From Nanobdellota archaeon (GTDB lineage: Archaea; Nanobdellota; Nanobdellia; Woesearchaeales; GCA-2686295), in NCBI GenBank assembly GCA_018817005.1, contig JAHIUF010000087.1, forward strand, positions 1-36,156: a stretch of 36,156 nt of DNA, read 5' to 3'. How positions within the stretch are numbered: position 1 is the first letter of the stretch; each line of letters begins with the position of its first letter. Of this stretch, positions 2,542 through 9,419 are shown piece by piece. A program made the position numbers and the translations under genes. The notes beneath the pieces are model-generated. The model did no database searches. It saw only the letters and a program-made list of their open reading frames with translations, and had not been told where the DNA came from.

Positions 2542-2567
2542 AATACTAGTTTTGAAAAACTAGTATT
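2542..2567. promoter_or_regulatory. Perfect 12-bp inverted repeat between gyrA and the membrane-protein gene
   Basis: The arms AATACTAGTTTT (2542-2553) and AAAACTAGTATT (2556-2567) are exact reverse complements around a 2-nt centre. The repeat touches the gyrA stop codon and ends 2 nt before the next ATG. It also lies between a TATA-like box and the predicted leaderless start of that gene. It can be read either as an operator or as an RNA hairpin ending the gyrA message. Confidence 0.6.
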
Positions 2568-5032
2568 TAAATTTTTTCAGAAGGTTCATCTTCATCAGTA
2601 ATAATTTTTGCAGCCGAAACTACAACATCATCATTACTTAACCGCATTAATCTTACACCTTGGGTATTACGACTAATTGTTGAAATATCTGAAGAAGAAG
2701 TCCTGATAATTATACCGTCCCTGCTAATAAACATTAATTCATCATCGTCTGATGCTGCATTTACAGCCACAACATCACCATTTCTCTCTGTACATTTAAT
2801 GTTTATAACCCCTTTTCCACCGCGTTTTATCAAACGATATTCTGAAATCGGAGTTTTTTTACCATAACCATTTTCAGTTATGGTTAGAAGATTTTCACCC
2901 TCATCAGCAATTATTACATCAACTAGAGCATCATCTCTGCCTGATCTTAGTGTAACACCCCTTACACCTCTACAAACGCGACCCAAAGGACGAGCGTCTT
3001 TTTCATCAAACTTAACTGCATAGCCTTTTTTTGTGGCGAGAAGAATTTTTTTAGAACCGTCAGTTAACTTAACAGCTATTAAAGAATCATTATCATCTAA
3101 ATTAATAGCCCGTATGCCGCCTTTTCGAACATTTGAATATGCATCCAGTTTTGTCTTTTTAATAATTCCTTTTTTTGTTGCCATAAAAAGATACTGCTTT
3201 TCGTCAAATTCATCTACTGGTATAACTGCAGTTACTTTTTCATCACTTTCAACCTCTAAAAAATTAACAAGCGGTTTTCCTTTTGAATATCTATCAGACT
3301 CAGGTATTCTATAAACTTTTAGCCAGTAAAGTTTTCCCTTAGTTGTAAATATCAATAAATATGAGTGAGTGTTTGCAACAAATAAATGTTCTATGAAATC
3401 TTCTTCCTTCATCGTGGCTCCAATTACTCCTTTTCCACCTCTTCTTTGAAGCTTATATGTTTCAATAGGCATTCTTTTAATGTAACCTGCGTGTGTTATG
3501 CTTACAACCACATCTTCCTTTACAATTAAATCTTCTATATCCATATCTTCTTCAATATCAGATATTTCAGTTCTACGTTTATCACCAAAAGTTTCAGAAA
3601 CTTCTTTAAGTTCGGATTTTATAATCTCAAGAATTTTTTGTTTATCTGCCAAAATTTCTTTTAACTCTTTAATCTTTTTCAAAAGATCATTGTACTCATT
3701 AATTATTTTATCTTGCTCAAGTTTTGCAAGTTTTTGAAGCTTCATATCAAGAATTGCCAAAGTTTGTTCTTTTGAAAGAGAAAATTCTAATATGAGATTT
3801 GTTCTTGCTTTGTCAACAGAATCTGCGCTTTTAATAGTTTTTATAATTGCATTAATATTTTTTAAGGCAATCTTTAATCCTTCTAAAATATGTGCTCTTG
3901 CTTCGGCTTTTTTTAAATCATATGTTGTTCTTTTTGTAACAACTTCTTTTCGATGCAAAAGATAGTTTTCCAAAAGCTCTTTTAATGTAAGAGTTTTCGG
4001 TTCATTATTGACTAGGGCAATCATAATTGCACCAAAAGTTACTTGTAATCTGGTGTGTTTGAAAAGTTGGTTTTTTACAACTTCAACATTCGTATTTTTT
4101 TTTAATGAAACAACCACGCGTATTCCATTTCTATCACTTTCATCTCTTAAATCAGAAATGCCTTCTATTGATTTATTATGAACACATTTTGCAATTTCTT
4201 CAACTAACAATGATTTATTTATCATGTAAGGTACTTCAGTTATTATTAATGCTTGCCGGTCCTTTTTCTCTTCTAATTCTACTTTTCCTTTAAGTATTAT
4301 TTTTCCTCTTCCTGTAGAGTATGCATCTATTATACTTTTTCTTCCTGCAATAACACCACCTGTTGGAAAATCAGGTCCTTTTATAAACTCCATAAGCTCT
4401 AAAACACCAATATCTGGATTTTCAAGAAAAGCAATTAATCCTTCAACAACTTCTCTGATATTGTGGGGTGGTATGTTTGTTGCCATTCCAACAGCAATAC
4501 CAGAACTACCATTAATAAGTAAACTGGGCAGTTTAGAAGGAAGAACAACTGGTTCTTTTAATGAGCCATCAAAGTTATCTATAAAATCAACTGTTTCTTT
4601 ATCAATATCTTGAAGCATTTCATCAGAAATTTTAGCTAGTTTCGCCTCTGTATAACGCATAGCTGCTGCATTATCACCGTCAATACTTCCAAAATTTCCC
4701 TGACCATTAATAAAAGGATATCTAAGAGAAAAAGTCTGCGCCATTCTAACAAGGGAATCATAAACTGCAGAATCACCATGAGGATGATACTTACCAAGTA
4801 CTTCTCCAACGATTCTTGCACATTTTTTATGACTGCCTGAGTATTTTAATCCAATGTCATTCATTGCAAAAAGAATTCTTCTATGAACTGGTTTTAATCC
4901 ATCCCGCACATCTGGAAGAGCTCTTCCGACTATAACTGACATAGCATAATCAAGATATGCTATCTTCATTTCATCTTCTATGACTCTTGGTATTATTCGC
5001 TGCGCTGTTTTCTGTTCTTTTTCTTCACTCAT
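2567..5032 (-). CDS. gyrA: DNA gyrase subunit A
   Basis: The 821-residue product is a complete bacterial-type GyrA. The N-terminal winged-helix/tower part has the catalytic Tyr at residue 127 within [10 protein letters not shown]. Then come a coiled-coil arm (about 365-480) and a C-terminal beta-pinwheel with the GyrA box QRRGGKG near residue 527 and a degenerate copy (IKRGGKG) further on. With GyrB it introduces negative supercoils. I chose the ATG at 5032 and not the longer frame from 5086, because AGGTGA stands 4 nt upstream. A TATA-like TTTATAAG at 5086-5093 (read on the minus strand) predicts a leader of about 30 nt. No gyrB is in the window. Confidence 0.95.
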
Positions 5033-5125
5033 GTTTTCACCTAAAAGAAGAGGATTTTCCCTCAATAAAAATGAGTATTTAATCATTTATAAGCCTTACG
5101 CTTTTAGACGAGGGAAAAACAATTT

Positions 5126-5263
5126 TCAACAAGTTTTTACTATGTTTTTATTAACTTTAAAAGATCTACCGCAAAAAACACATTTTTTAATAGCTTCGTA
5201 TACTTTTTTTCTTGGAGAACAAAGCATGTTTTTCTTACACTTCGGGCATTTTACTTGGTACAT
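5126..5263 (-). CDS. Small zinc-ribbon protein, 45 aa
   Basis: The frame encodes a 45-residue protein with a clear four-Cys zinc-ribbon pattern: CPKC at residues 6-9 and CVFC at 28-31, plus a spare Cys15, with basic residues between. Its start overlaps the end of scpB by 29 nt in another frame, so translation is probably coupled. An ATG two codons upstream (5269) is possible. Open sequence further upstream is only the antisense-like shadow of the acidic ScpB tail. The stop is TGA. It is likely a nucleic-acid-binding ribbon; the precise family is not known to me. Confidence 0.7.
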   Translation of the reverse strand: MYQVKCPKCKKNMLCSPRKKVYEAIKKCVFCGRSFKVNKNIVKTC

Positions 5264-6212
5264 CTTCATCGGTATTGTCTTCATCAATATATTCTTCTTC
5301 AGTATCTTTTTCTTTAGATTTTTCTTCACCAAAATATTCATCTTTTGTTTCATCAACTATTTCTTCTGAATCGTCTGTCTGTTCTTCAGAAACCTGTTTT
5401 TCTTGTTCAGACCGTTCCTCTATTCCTTCCTGAACGGCTATTTCAATTTTTTCTTTTCTCTTCTTAAAAACATCATCGTTATCAAACTCATCGTTTCTCT
5501 TTGATATTTCTTCGATTTTTCTATTAATTTCATCAAGAAACTCATTATCTATGGCTAATTTAGGGGATTTTTCAATTTTTACAACTTCAGATTCACTAAT
5601 GACTTGTAAGGTTTCATTATGAGGTCCAAAAATTTCTTTAGTTCTAAGATTTTTTTCCTCAGAATCAGTATCTGCTTTAACAACCTCGAGGTTTCCAAGT
5701 GTTTCTTCTTGTTTTACAGGAATTTTTACATCTTTAAAAGCTTCTTTTATACCTTTAGATCCGACAACATCAAAGTATTCAAAGAATTTTTCAGTAACTC
5801 TAAGTTTATAACTTCTACCTTCTTTTTCTTTTATTAAAAAATCTCTGTCAACCAATTCTTTTATGTGATCATAAGCTTTATTCGTTCTAATCTTTATCAC
5901 TTCAGACTGCAAAACTGGTGATTTCCACGCAATAACTGAAAGTGTCTCTAGAACTGACTTTGAAAGTTCTGTATCAGAAATTATTTTTACAACGAGATTC
6001 ATATATTTTTCACGAACAATCAATTTCCACGACTCGCCTTCAGAAACAACCATTAAAGCAGAATCTCTGTTTTTATAATTATCTACTAATTCCGAAATGG
6101 CTTTTATAATGTTTTTTTTTTGATTATTTGTGAGTGTTGCGAGTTCTACTTCACTCATTGCCTTACCACTTGAAAAAAGCAGAGCTTCAACTTCGTTTTT
6201 TAAGTCACTCAT
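5235..6212 (-). CDS. scpB: Segregation and condensation protein B, with a long acidic tail
   Basis: Residues 1 to about 165 are the tandem winged-helix ScpB core (EALLFSSGKAMSEVEL; SVLETLSVIAWKSPV; the conserved helix-turn-helix near IKIRTNKAYDHIKELVDRDFL). ScpB joins kleisin ScpA and an SMC ATPase in chromosome condensation and segregation. The remaining 155 or so residues are unusual: a Lys/Glu/Asp-rich, probably disordered tail with an EEIVDETKDEYF-like acidic run. The usual length is 180-220 aa, so the tail nearly doubles it. The ATG overlaps the TGA of the upstream gene (ATGA), and the 3' end overlaps the zinc-ribbon gene. Confidence 0.88.
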   Translation of the reverse strand: MSDLKNEVEALLFSSGKAMSEVELATLTNNQKKNIIKAISELVDNYKNRDSALMVVSEGESWKLIVREKYMNLVVKIISDTELSKSVLETLSVIAWKSPVLQSEVIKIRTNKAYDHIKELVDRDFLIKEKEGRSYKLRVTEKFFEYFDVVGSKGIKEAFKDVKIPVKQEETLGNLEVVKADTDSEEKNLRTKEIFGPHNETLQVISESEVVKIEKSPKLAIDNEFLDEINRKIEEISKRNDEFDNDDVFKKRKEKIEIAVQEGIEERSEQEKQVSEEQTDDSEEIVDETKDEYFGEEKSKEKDTEEEYIDEDNTDEDVPSKMPEV

Positions 6213-6811
6213 TTTGTTCTAAAATATTTGTTCTTTTCTTTTTTTATTTTTCCTTCTTTTTGCATGGCTTCAAACACAGGCGCTATATGTTCCTTTTTAA
6301 CACCTATTTTTTTAGCGATTTCATCAGCTTTTGTAAGACCAAAATCCATACATGTAAGTATTGAGTTCCTCACTAGTGCATTCATATTTTTTACCATGAG
6401 TTTATTTTGTTCACCTACTTGTTGAGCAACGATACTTATTTCATGTAGTTTTGCCAAAAGATCATTTATCCAATTTGTAAGTTTGCTTGGCTTAAACATG
6501 AGTGTTTCAGGTTCTAAAATTTCAATTGATGCGGGCATGAAATTAAAGCAAATCCAAGTCACCTTTTCAAGTCCTTTAATTAACATTTCAACTTCTGCAA
6601 ATGTACTCCAATGAGTATCTTGTTTTTCGGCTTGTTCAAACTTTTCGTGAACAAATATTATTTCCTCGTCATTTTTTAGTTTTTCAACATAACTTTTTAG
6701 AGCATTTTCCACATACTCTTTTGGTGTTCCTATTACCTCAAAAATAACATTAGCTCTGATAAAGCCTTCTTCGAGTTTTTGTTTTATTTCTTTTTCTTTC
6801 AACGAAAACAC
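6209..6811 (-). CDS. Uncharacterised helical protein with a C-terminal winged helix, coupled to scpB
   Basis: The family is not recognised. The 200-residue product has a helical N-terminus (KEKEIKQKLEEGFIRANVIFEVIG, with a long helix near 35-60) and a middle helix rich in Asn/Val (LAKLHEISIVAQQVGEQ). The C-terminal region, about 150-200, reads as a winged helix (ADEIAKKIGVKKEHIAPVF). It is translationally coupled to scpB through ATGA. The GTG at 6811 lies about 28 nt from a TATA-like box (leaderless). Alternatively the TTG at 6802 could use the SD GAGGTG. The position before scpB and the C-terminal winged helix invite a kleisin/ScpA-like role, which is unproven. Confidence 0.75.
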   Translation of the reverse strand: MFSLKEKEIKQKLEEGFIRANVIFEVIGTPKEYVENALKSYVEKLKNDEEIIFVHEKFEQAEKQDTHWSTFAEVEMLIKGLEKVTWICFNFMPASIEILEPETLMFKPSKLTNWINDLLAKLHEISIVAQQVGEQNKLMVKNMNALVRNSILTCMDFGLTKADEIAKKIGVKKEHIAPVFEAMQKEGKIKKEKNKYFRTK

Positions 6812-6859: not shown

Positions 6860-7903
6860 CTAAAGTTTTTTCTTAAATATTAGTATTAAGAACAATATAG
6901 TAAAAGGAACTAATAAAAAGTAGACTGTTTTGTTTTTAGTCTTTTCGGAGTTTGATTCATATATTATTTTTCCTGTCGGAGTATCACTTTTATTTTCAAA
7001 AATAACTTTGTTCTCTGTAAAGGTGAGTTGTGTCGCACCTGTTGTCTTGTTTAATTTTTCTTCCCCTTCAAAAAAAATTTCAAGTTCTTGAAAATCCAAA
7101 ACATCATCTGAATTTCTTAACAGTAAAAAATACTTGTTATTTCCAAAATGAGCGGTTGCATTAAATGAGATTGTCTTTGAACCATCTAAAGTGATATTTT
7201 GAATTTTTATTTTACACATATCAAAAAATACTACTTCATAAACACCTTTACCTGCAATGTTTGTATAAACAACTATTTCTTCATAAAAATTTTTTACTCT
7301 TGTGTAAAAAGAATTTATTTTTCCAAGAACATTGAATTGTTCTGTAACCACTATTGACGTTTCATCACATTCACAACTCGCACTTTTAGAATTGTCCACT
7401 TCATCATCCAGTAATGGTTCATTTTTAATTATTAATATTTTTTGAGAACGAGTGTTATTATTTATGTTGGTGCAGTTAAGATATTTTATTTGGTTTTTTA
7501 TAATTAAAACTTTTTCTTCAACAGCTATTTTTGGCGTGTAATACTTCGTATTTTGATTTTTTGTCGTATATATTTTTTTTATTTCCCTTCCAAAAAGATC
7601 TTCAATCCAATAATCAATTTCATAATAAAAAGAATTATTAGATAAAATGTTTTGAAAAGATACTTGTTCATTGTTTTGATACAATAGTTGTGTTGTTTGA
7701 AGAGAAATAGAAATATTACAAATATGGCTCAAATTACTTTGTGCATTATTCATTGATTCATTTGATTGTATAGTATTGGCTGTAAGGTTATCATAAGATA
7801 TATTTATGTTCAAAAAAACTTCAACAACATATGTCTCATTTAATGCAAAAGTTAATGATGGAAGAAAAAATAGGAGCATAAAATACAAAATGATTTTTTT
7901 CAT
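6860..7903 (-). CDS. Secreted, C-terminally membrane-anchored protein, unknown function
   Basis: The 347-residue protein has a signal peptide (MKKIILYFMLLFFLPSLTFA). A largely beta-type, Asn/Ser/Thr-rich ectodomain follows with many N-x-S/T sequons, then one C-terminal TM helix (VYFLLVPFTILFLILIF) followed by KKKL. That is a type I cell-surface topology. A short Cys pair (ASCECDE) is near the middle. The ATG is about 26 nt downstream of a TATA-like ATTTATTAAC (about 7925-7935) without SD, so the gene is probably leaderless. I recognise no catalytic domain; a pseudopilin-like or cell-surface structural role would be a guess. Confidence 0.75.
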   Translation of the reverse strand: MKKIILYFMLLFFLPSLTFALNETYVVEVFLNINISYDNLTANTIQSNESMNNAQSNLSHICNISISLQTTQLLYQNNEQVSFQNILSNNSFYYEIDYWIEDLFGREIKKIYTTKNQNTKYYTPKIAVEEKVLIIKNQIKYLNCTNINNNTRSQKILIIKNEPLLDDEVDNSKSASCECDETSIVVTEQFNVLGKINSFYTRVKNFYEEIVVYTNIAGKGVYEVVFFDMCKIKIQNITLDGSKTISFNATAHFGNNKYFLLLRNSDDVLDFQELEIFFEGEEKLNKTTGATQLTFTENKVIFENKSDTPTGKIIYESNSEKTKNKTVYFLLVPFTILFLILIFKKKL

Positions 7904-8094: not shown

Positions 8095-8787
8095 ATGTTT
8101 AAATTTCTAAAAAAGAAAGAATCCAAGTCAACACTAGAACCATTAGACATGAATGAAAAACCAACATTAGAGAGTATTATGCCAACAAAAGATGAGTTTC
8201 CTCAAATAGAAGATATACCTTTACCCCCTAAACCAGAAGAAATATTAGACGAACCAAAAGAAGATTTATTTCCTGAACTAGAAGATGAAACTCAAAAAAC
8301 AAAAGATCTTGAAGAACCTCCAAAAATAGACGAACTTGAAGATTTGTCAGAACCCGATAAATTAGACTTAAAAGATTCTGAAACAAAAAACTTTAAACCT
8401 CAAACAGAAGAAGAAGAATTCTCACTTCCAGATTTTGATGATGAAGACCTGAGTATGGATGAAGATATTAGTTCTGAAGAAGCAAAAGAAGAGCTTAAAC
8501 CATTCACTAAAATAAAATCTATTCAAGAAAGCCCAACACCAACAATAGAATCAAACGAAAAAGGCGAACACTTCATAGAAGGAAAAAAAGGAAAAGAAGT
8601 ACTAAGAAAAATAGATGAAAATCAAGAAAGCATAAAAAAAGCAATAGAATCATTCACAAAAACAAGTGAAAGAACAAAAAACACAAAACAACTATTCAAA
8701 TTATTTCATGATAATTTAGATGTTGCTCAAGAAAAATTGATGCAAATAGACGACAAACTTTTTGAAAACAAGACACTCCAGAGGTGA
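8095..8787 (+). CDS. Acidic, largely disordered protein with a C-terminal coiled coil
   Basis: The 230-residue product starts with a basic MFKFLKKKESK patch. About 110 residues rich in Glu/Asp/Pro follow (many ExPxxxELEDL-like runs), then a helical, heptad-bearing tail from about residue 165 (EVLRKIDENQESIKKAIESF). There is no signal peptide or TM helix. It is first in a three-gene operon of coiled-coil proteins, ends with TGA inside the SD-like AGGTGA, and lies 6 nt before the next ATG. The architecture (disordered acidic linker plus coiled coil) suggests a scaffold. A relation to archaellum accessory proteins ArlC/D is possible but not shown. Confidence 0.75.
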   Translation: MFKFLKKKESKSTLEPLDMNEKPTLESIMPTKDEFPQIEDIPLPPKPEEILDEPKEDLFPELEDETQKTKDLEEPPKIDELEDLSEPDKLDLKDSETKNFKPQTEEEEFSLPDFDDEDLSMDEDISSEEAKEELKPFTKIKSIQESPTPTIESNEKGEHFIEGKKGKEVLRKIDENQESIKKAIESFTKTSERTKNTKQLFKLFHDNLDVAQEKLMQIDDKLFENKTLQR

Positions 8788-8793
8788 AAATAA

Positions 8794-9018
8794 ATGACTC
8801 AAAATCAAATTTTTGTGAAAATAGATGAATATAAAGAAATACTAAATATAGTTGGTATTGTAAAAAACAAAATTACAAAAGCAAAAGAAACAATAGATAA
8901 AATAAACGAATTGAAAAAACAAGAGAATGAAGAAATAGAAACTTGGGGCAGCAATTTAGAATCAGTATCAAAAAAAGTAGGAGTTATAGAAGAAGCACTT
9001 TCACAAGTGAACAACTAA
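8794..9018 (+). CDS. Small coiled-coil protein, 74 aa
   Basis: Nearly the whole protein is heptad-patterned helix (KIDEYKEILNIVGIVKNKI; KETIDKINELKKQENEEIE), ending in a second short helix. The ATG is preceded by AGGTGA shared with the stop of the upstream gene. It sits between two other charged helical genes with gaps of 6 and 2 nt, so the three products are likely made together and may form one complex. I recognise no family. Confidence 0.72.
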   Translation: MTQNQIFVKIDEYKEILNIVGIVKNKITKAKETIDKINELKKQENEEIETWGSNLESVSKKVGVIEEALSQVNN

Positions 9019-9020
9019 AA

Positions 9021-9419
9021 ATGGAAGGAGAATTTTTTATAAGGATTGAAGAGCCAGGAAAGTTAAGGAAAAACTTTTTAGAAACATCAAAAGAAATAAT
9101 TCAAAATCTAAAAAGTTATCATAAAATATTAAAATTAAGAGAAGAAAAACTCGCTCTTCTTGATGATTTAAAGACTGATCTAAAAGAAATTAACCTCTTA
9201 TTTGATAAAATAAAAGAATTATTACCGCTTGAACTTCTAAAACAGATACACGAAGAAAAACCAAAAACAGAAAAAAAGAAACCAACAACAAAAGCTAAAA
9301 ACGATAAGAAAGTAGAAACTAAAATAAAACCTCAAGAAAAAGCTTCAAAACCATCAGAACTTGCAAAACTCGAAGAATCACTAAAAGAAATCGAAGACAA
9401 ATTGCGAACTTTAGGATAA
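9021..9419 (+). CDS. Helical protein with a Lys/Pro-rich linker
   Basis: The 132-residue protein starts at the ATG 2 nt after the previous stop; a longer frame upstream is the shadow of the preceding gene. N-terminal helices (KLRKNFLETSKEIIQNLKSY) are followed by a coiled-coil pair, a basic disordered linker (about 82-112, KKKPTTKAKNDKKVETK) and a final short amphipathic helix (KLEESLKEIEDKLRTL). The basic linker contrasts with the strongly acidic first gene of the operon and could bind it electrostatically; that is inference. Confidence 0.72.
   Translation: MEGEFFIRIEEPGKLRKNFLETSKEIIQNLKSYHKILKLREEKLALLDDLKTDLKEINLLFDKIKELLPLELLKQIHEEKPKTEKKKPTTKAKNDKKVETKIKPQEKASKPSELAKLEESLKEIEDKLRTLG

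Follow-up and report, generated by a model that had tools for sequence, protein, structure and literature searches.

The question raised by this locus is what the chromosome-organizing protein ScpB acts with in a large group of archaea with tiny genomes when the gene coupled to it is not scpA but one for an unrelated protein that ends in a winged helix. The window analyzed here, a 36,156-nucleotide stretch (positions 1 to 36,156 of contig JAHIUF010000087.1, assembly GCA_018817005.1), comes from a Nanobdellota archaeon of the order Woesearchaeales, whose genome assembly (G000) comprises 1.66 Mb in 91 contigs and is 91% complete. A preliminary description had reported an scpB gene with an acidic tail, a zinc ribbon and a gene for a 200-residue winged-helix protein coupled to scpB through an ATGA overlap, with no scpA adjoining. 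All of these genes are present on the minus strand, the 4-base overlap lies at 6209-6212, and scpA sits on another contig. The gene for the winged-helix protein (hereafter the WH protein; 6209..6811, minus strand) encodes 200 residues from a GTG start; the starts in close relatives suggest that a TTG at 6802 may be the true one. It is followed by scpB (5235..6212, minus strand), whose 325-residue product exceeds the cut-offs of both PF04079 (116 bits vs 27.4) and TIGR00281 (109.4 vs 89.2), and by a zinc ribbon with two CxxC pairs (5126..5263, minus strand). The latter is real, but the 76-residue ORF with a TTG start is probably too long: a 45-residue version with its likely start at ATG 5263, overlapping scpB by 29 bases, is preferred because it fits the 46-57 residues of most relatives' zinc ribbons. 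Downstream and in the same direction lies gyrA (2567..5086, minus strand), a common neighbor in the order. Upstream, a gene at 6860..7903 (minus strand) codes for a protein that matches the iterated profile of an LTD-containing neighbor family with E 3.5e-8 and no Pfam family at E 0.1; by eye it has a signal-like start and a hydrophobic end, as a secreted or membrane-anchored protein would. The divergently transcribed genes at 8095-9419 (plus strand) are acidic or coiled-coil, without a Pfam match above cut-off, and by eye they resemble two small families whose genes occupy the opposite strand upstream in 43 and 25 of 78 named loci. A search of a plasmid collection gave no match.

The kleisin ScpA (PF02616) and the WH protein share one C-terminal winged helix, and the WH gene adjoins scpB; both points favor the divergent kleisin considered in the preliminary description, which would either stand in for ScpA or be a second version of it. 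However, the genome has a canonical ScpA in one copy on contig 32 (G000:C32, 248 residues; PF02616, 50.5 bits), as well as, on contig 1, an SMC whose 1179-residue frame contains the two head halves and the hinge. A profile made from seven ScpAs of the order (the resident one plus the 6 out of 12 fetched whose plus-strand frames were long enough) matches the solved N-terminal and C-terminal domains of ScpA. The WH protein, for its part, has no PF02616 among its matches to E 1, and its hhalign probability is 0.1% against the resident ScpA profile and 16% against the first winged helix of ScpB. The helical N-terminal domain with which kleisins engage the SMC neck is absent from it, as the structural model has a b-a-b-b-a-b arrangement at residues 17-100; nor does it resemble a kite protein, the AlphaFold2 model having a single winged helix rather than a tandem pair. 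The two proteins also coexist more widely: among 60 genomes taken from the organism itself, its genus, its family and its order, the WH protein was found in 56, ScpB in 55 and ScpA in 53. Given the wrong N-terminal fold and the lack of similarity to a ScpA that is itself present, we regard the kleisin identity as refuted.

To describe the WH protein we relied on an AlphaFold2 model computed from an 80-row alignment (mean pLDDT 95.8, pTM 0.76). It comprises a ferredoxin-like b-a-b-b-a-b domain, also supported by conservation (residues 17-100; 6512..6763, minus strand), a predicted 49-residue helix (residues 108-156; 6344..6490, minus strand) and a C-terminal winged helix (residues 160-198; 6218..6334, minus strand). 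A Foldseek search with the model against the PDB retrieved nothing at E 0.001 or better, and VIA-align returned common folds only; as the core and the long helix were folded as parts of the whole protein, no new fold is claimed. Residues 17-101 superpose on S6-type chains with Z 8-9.2 and rmsd 2.2-3.6 A, as in ferredoxin-like folds such as bS6, RelA and HPPK; this core is a common arrangement, and no function follows from it. Sequence profile searches against the PDB recovered mostly generic winged helices (best E 0.011), with nearly all matches in the winged helix and none over residues 17-94. Likewise, the WH protein reaches no curated Pfam or NCBIfam family cut-off, and no Pfam or NCBIfam family was matched by more than 2 of 29 core rows at E 0.1. 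Across 80 full-length rows the models that turn up repeatedly are generic winged helices, with ANAPC2 in 40 (best E 7.7e-5) and TrmB in 32 (best E 5.2e-5).

These matches bear on a further explanation, namely that the winged helix binds DNA in the manner of MarR or TrmB and that the protein serves as a regulator of its own operon or as a nucleoid protein. Its C-terminal 54-59 residues do superpose on MarR-type and Z-alpha domains (Z 8-10.8, rmsd 0.9-1.5 A), the protein weakly matches the TrmB (18.8 vs a cut-off of 25.6) and MarR (13.4 vs 24.6) profiles, and the winged helix of the window copy carries a net charge of +7. On the other hand, it differs from these families in architecture and in reaching no curated cut-off, and for several rows in which part of the long helix is taken in the superposition is poor (rmsd 5.8 to 8.5 A). 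Over the 80 rows the median net charge of the winged helix is 0, with 38 positive, and no basic character is conserved in the recognition helix; by eye, the recognition-helix residues needed for Z-DNA do not line up in the WH protein, and membership in the Z-alpha group was set aside. These features do not clearly mark the winged helix as one that reads DNA. The family also includes short forms that lack it, and a regulator of this kind appears unlikely.

The family to which the WH protein belongs extends well beyond the order. The WH protein was found in 51 of the 54 genera of the first 60 genomes, and 194 genomes drawn from the phylum, all of those listed belonging to the same class, yielded the WH protein in 187, ScpB in 185 and ScpA in 175. 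A core-only profile, covering the ferredoxin-like domain and the long helix that together form the class-wide core, recovered the family in 351 of 375 relatives; the profile searches for the family reached its own class only. Thus, the WH protein is the winged-helix-bearing form, typical of the order, of an uncharacterized and nearly class-wide family. E25, G28, P30, P93, N116 and H123 mark its conserved surface. In addition, scanning all species representatives of a collection with two strict peptide patterns yielded 206 relatives, 80 of which are listed as named loci; 78 of these are titled Woesearchaeota, Nanoarchaeota, Nanoarchaeia, DPANN or plain archaeon. The other two, a Candidatus Aminicenantes bacterium (L144) and a Methanosarcinales archaeon (L165), carry a Woesearchaeota-type operon and are probably misnamed or misbinned MAGs. 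Several absences are likely to be assembly gaps, given that the genes lie at contig edges: scpB is at the very start of a contig in G084 and G106, and in G032 a fragment of the WH gene lies at a contig end. In G042, G111 and G119 both the WH gene and scpB are lacking, which one gap could explain. G042, which is 95% complete and of the order, has an SMC hinge and gave no match for the WH protein, ScpB or ScpA. Two genomes of 90 and 92% completeness (G185 and G219) gave ScpA matches and showed neither ScpB nor a hinge. We found nothing in the open-licence literature on this family or on the acidic ScpB tail described below.

Outside the order the listed matches mostly end near profile position 140-150, before the winged helix. 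From among the stronger of these matches we examined 20 loci in fetched stretches of 6.6-8.5 kb each: none of the 20 proteins has a winged helix and no scpB occurs in any of the stretches. An LTD-type gene stands immediately upstream in 16 of them, and 15 have Hjc. By eye, at least 3 of 36 genomes outside the order with positions listed for both genes have scpA and scpB adjacent (G080, G165 and G180). In a further family of genomes, f87, a divergent relative was recovered in 5 genomes with E 5e-8 to 4e-15, and a sixth (G339) gave no match; hhalign aligns this relative to the core with a probability of 97.8% (E 1.3e-12). Yet the SMC hinge was detected in none of the 5 genomes, and ScpA and ScpB in neither of the 2 tested. 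The gene comes after those for proteins of 199 and 104 residues in four of the f87 loci (L276-L279) and of 206 and 104 residues in L275. Pfam identifies the upstream pair of L276 as Gins51 and the ribosomal protein L44, and from their sequences we take the pairs of the other four loci to be the same. Retention of the family in f87, where no SMC hinge is detectable, indicates that the core has a job without SMC or ScpB and is not simply an SMC subunit. As to the alternative put forward in the preliminary description, a possible SMC accessory factor, the operon link with scpB in the order speaks for it; against it, the class-wide family occurs without a nearby scpB in the 20 loci from other orders and is kept in genomes without a detectable hinge.

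Within the order the association of the two genes is strong. In 56 genomes with the WH protein (the window genome included), scpB was found in 53 of the stretches, always on the same strand, and within 100 bp in 51. Of these 53 pairs 37 overlap, 16 of them by exactly 4 bases. The exceptions are two genomes with the genes on different contigs (G028 and G045), two in which they are 305 bp (G009) and 831 bp (G024) apart, and G032, the third unpaired genome, with its fragment running to the contig end. Similarly, 79 of the 80 named loci have scpB, 75 of them within 100 bp. Among 79 further genomes of the order, those with positions listed for both proteins, the two profile matches lie within 250 bp on one strand in 66 and within 150 bp in 63. 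The remaining 13 include nine with 269-1953 bp between the matches (G060, G067, G082, G086, G126, G142, G147, G155 and G221), two with opposite strands (G157 and G164) and two with different contigs (G129 and G186), indicating that the link is strong but not universal. The pair persists at protein identities down to 26%, and in G026 the winged helix is gone with scpB still adjoining. Recurrence across the order shows that the pairing is not due to chance.

Other genes travel with the pair. A zinc ribbon and gyrA each occur in 60 of the 80 named loci (gyrA on the same strand in 59); gyrase is present in the majority of Woesearchaeota, according to PMC9348778. An LTD-type secreted protein is encoded upstream in 57 of the 80 named loci and 30 of the 56 genomes, an odd constant neighbor for a protein that has no evident signal sequence. 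As an LTD-type gene is also frequent upstream in the other orders, the arrangement of these genes may reflect inheritance and not function. The neighbors ScpB, GyrA, Hjc and Gins51 point to a chromosome role for the family. One way to account for all this is that the family has a replication or recombination role of its own and merely shares a transcript with scpB, the zinc ribbon and gyrA, the proteins making no contact. We consider this quite possible, if somewhat doubtful. It would fit the retention of the family in f87 without a detectable SMC hinge and, in L276, after Gins51 and L44, the presence of Hjc and the LTD-type protein nearby in other orders, and the 13 of 79 genomes in which the pair is not kept together. 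It sits less easily with the frequent overlap of the pairs that are kept and with their survival at such low protein identities.

The tandem winged-helix, or kite, part of the window's ScpB (residues 1-150; 5763..6212, minus strand) is predicted by AlphaFold2 in blocks with pLDDT 86-98, so that both the domain match and the predicted fold are shared with the kite subunit of the bacterial Smc-ScpAB complex. In contrast to the latter, it is not encoded beside scpA or smc, stands in an operon with an unrelated family and bears a long acidic tail with a conserved peptide. This tail (residues 170-325; 5238..5705, minus strand) is partly of low confidence in the model; helices are predicted at moderate confidence for residues 223-242 and 247-273. 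The domain ends near residue 150, and the 140 residues from 186 on contain 34% D+E with a net charge of -26. Comparable tails are common in the order: 111 of 134 have at least 60 residues, with a median D+E of 34% in these and a net negative charge in 110 of the 111. The median tail length is 169.5 residues in the order (126 of the 134 rows, those in which the domain end could be marked) vs 43.5 in 20 ScpBs outside it, whose median total length is 194. Several linked ScpBs carry short tails, and the length measure scored at least four long rows (L079, L097, L098 and L202) as short, two of them plainly by alignment artefact.

Near its start the tail, which is otherwise variable among relatives, has a conserved peptide, LGNLEVV in the window (ScpB residues 172-178; 5679..5699, minus strand), which recurs in the tails of relatives as [LIVM]G-x-L-[EDQ]-[VI]-[VFYI], often followed by DEP. 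This motif occurs in 59 of 132 tails of the order, is lacking in the other 73 and appears in none of the 20 outside it; over 200 shuffles of the tails the hits averaged 0.04 and never exceeded 1, and about 960,000 residues contained just one further ORF with the motif. The 56-genome and 80-locus sets share genomes: after equal ScpB starts and short rows were dropped, leaving 117 rows with copies of one genome removed, the motif was retained in 52. Some tails have two copies (L103, L113, L151 and L166). On a FastTree protein tree the trait requires 28 changes, at least 12 of them on supported branches, which indicates that it is widespread rather than confined to one recent clade. A search of the window genome with the DNA pattern of the motif picked up 6 sites, scpB itself included, vs 11 for the reversed control; the motif is thus not genome-wide, and no partner can be named from it. 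In the ScpB model it lies at pLDDT under 50, so that no docking inside ScpB is seen. As to the preliminary suggestion that the acidic tail and the zinc ribbon might be a nucleic-acid or partner module, long tails prove common in the order and many bear a docking-like peptide.

Jeon et al. 2020 (PMC7055376) tested six archaeal ScpA-ScpB pairs, none of which binds; the middle region of bacterial ScpA, which has 61-72 residues, is longer than that of most archaeal ones, and two archaeal ScpAs in which this region is longer, at 49 and 66 residues, also failed to bind. The ScpA middle region of the window genome has 48 residues, and 46-53 were counted in 7 of 7 measured ScpAs of the order; with the same anchors a hand count gave 29 residues in chain 6ivh, which is archaeal, and 68 in chain 3w6j. 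That this shorter-than-bacterial region bears on ScpB binding is suggestive only. The archaeal ScpBs of that study share with the window an scpB apart from scpA and a shorter ScpA middle region; the word DPANN is absent from its main text, and here scpB has a frequent partner gene. A more radical possibility is that ScpB in these organisms stands outside Smc-ScpA altogether, in a separate kite complex with the WH protein that would be held or regulated by the sometimes repeated LGxLEVV docking peptide of the acidic ScpB tail and linked to gyrase; we consider this unlikely.

In the order the winged helix, the linkage to scpB and the long ScpB tails are found together, while outside it the family is in its short form and scpB is not near; given that these co-occurring traits belong to one clade, they amount to about one event. 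Taken as a whole, the reading that we tentatively favor, short of an even chance, is that the WH protein is a chromosome-maintenance adaptor acting with ScpB. Its ferredoxin-like domain and long helix would hold the protein together, with the long helix probably joining two copies into a dimer, and would bind an ancestral partner. In the order a winged helix would have been added and the gene would have become co-expressed with that of ScpB, so that the two could act together. With its LGxLEVV-type peptide, the acidic tail of ScpB might then serve as a docking site for the WH protein or for another partner, and ScpB might work with the WH protein instead of, or besides, ScpA.

The new elements are a class-wide family that has no name as yet, the winged helix and the scpB operon that typify it in the order, and the peptide in the tail of ScpB. 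If a separate complex of ScpB and the WH protein did exist, it would represent a kleisin-independent use of a kite protein. A frequent operon partner and a conserved tail peptide provide two concrete, testable leads on archaeal ScpB, and the core of the partner, near-universal in a large archaeal class and modeled in neither Pfam nor NCBIfam, poses a more general puzzle that merits solving.
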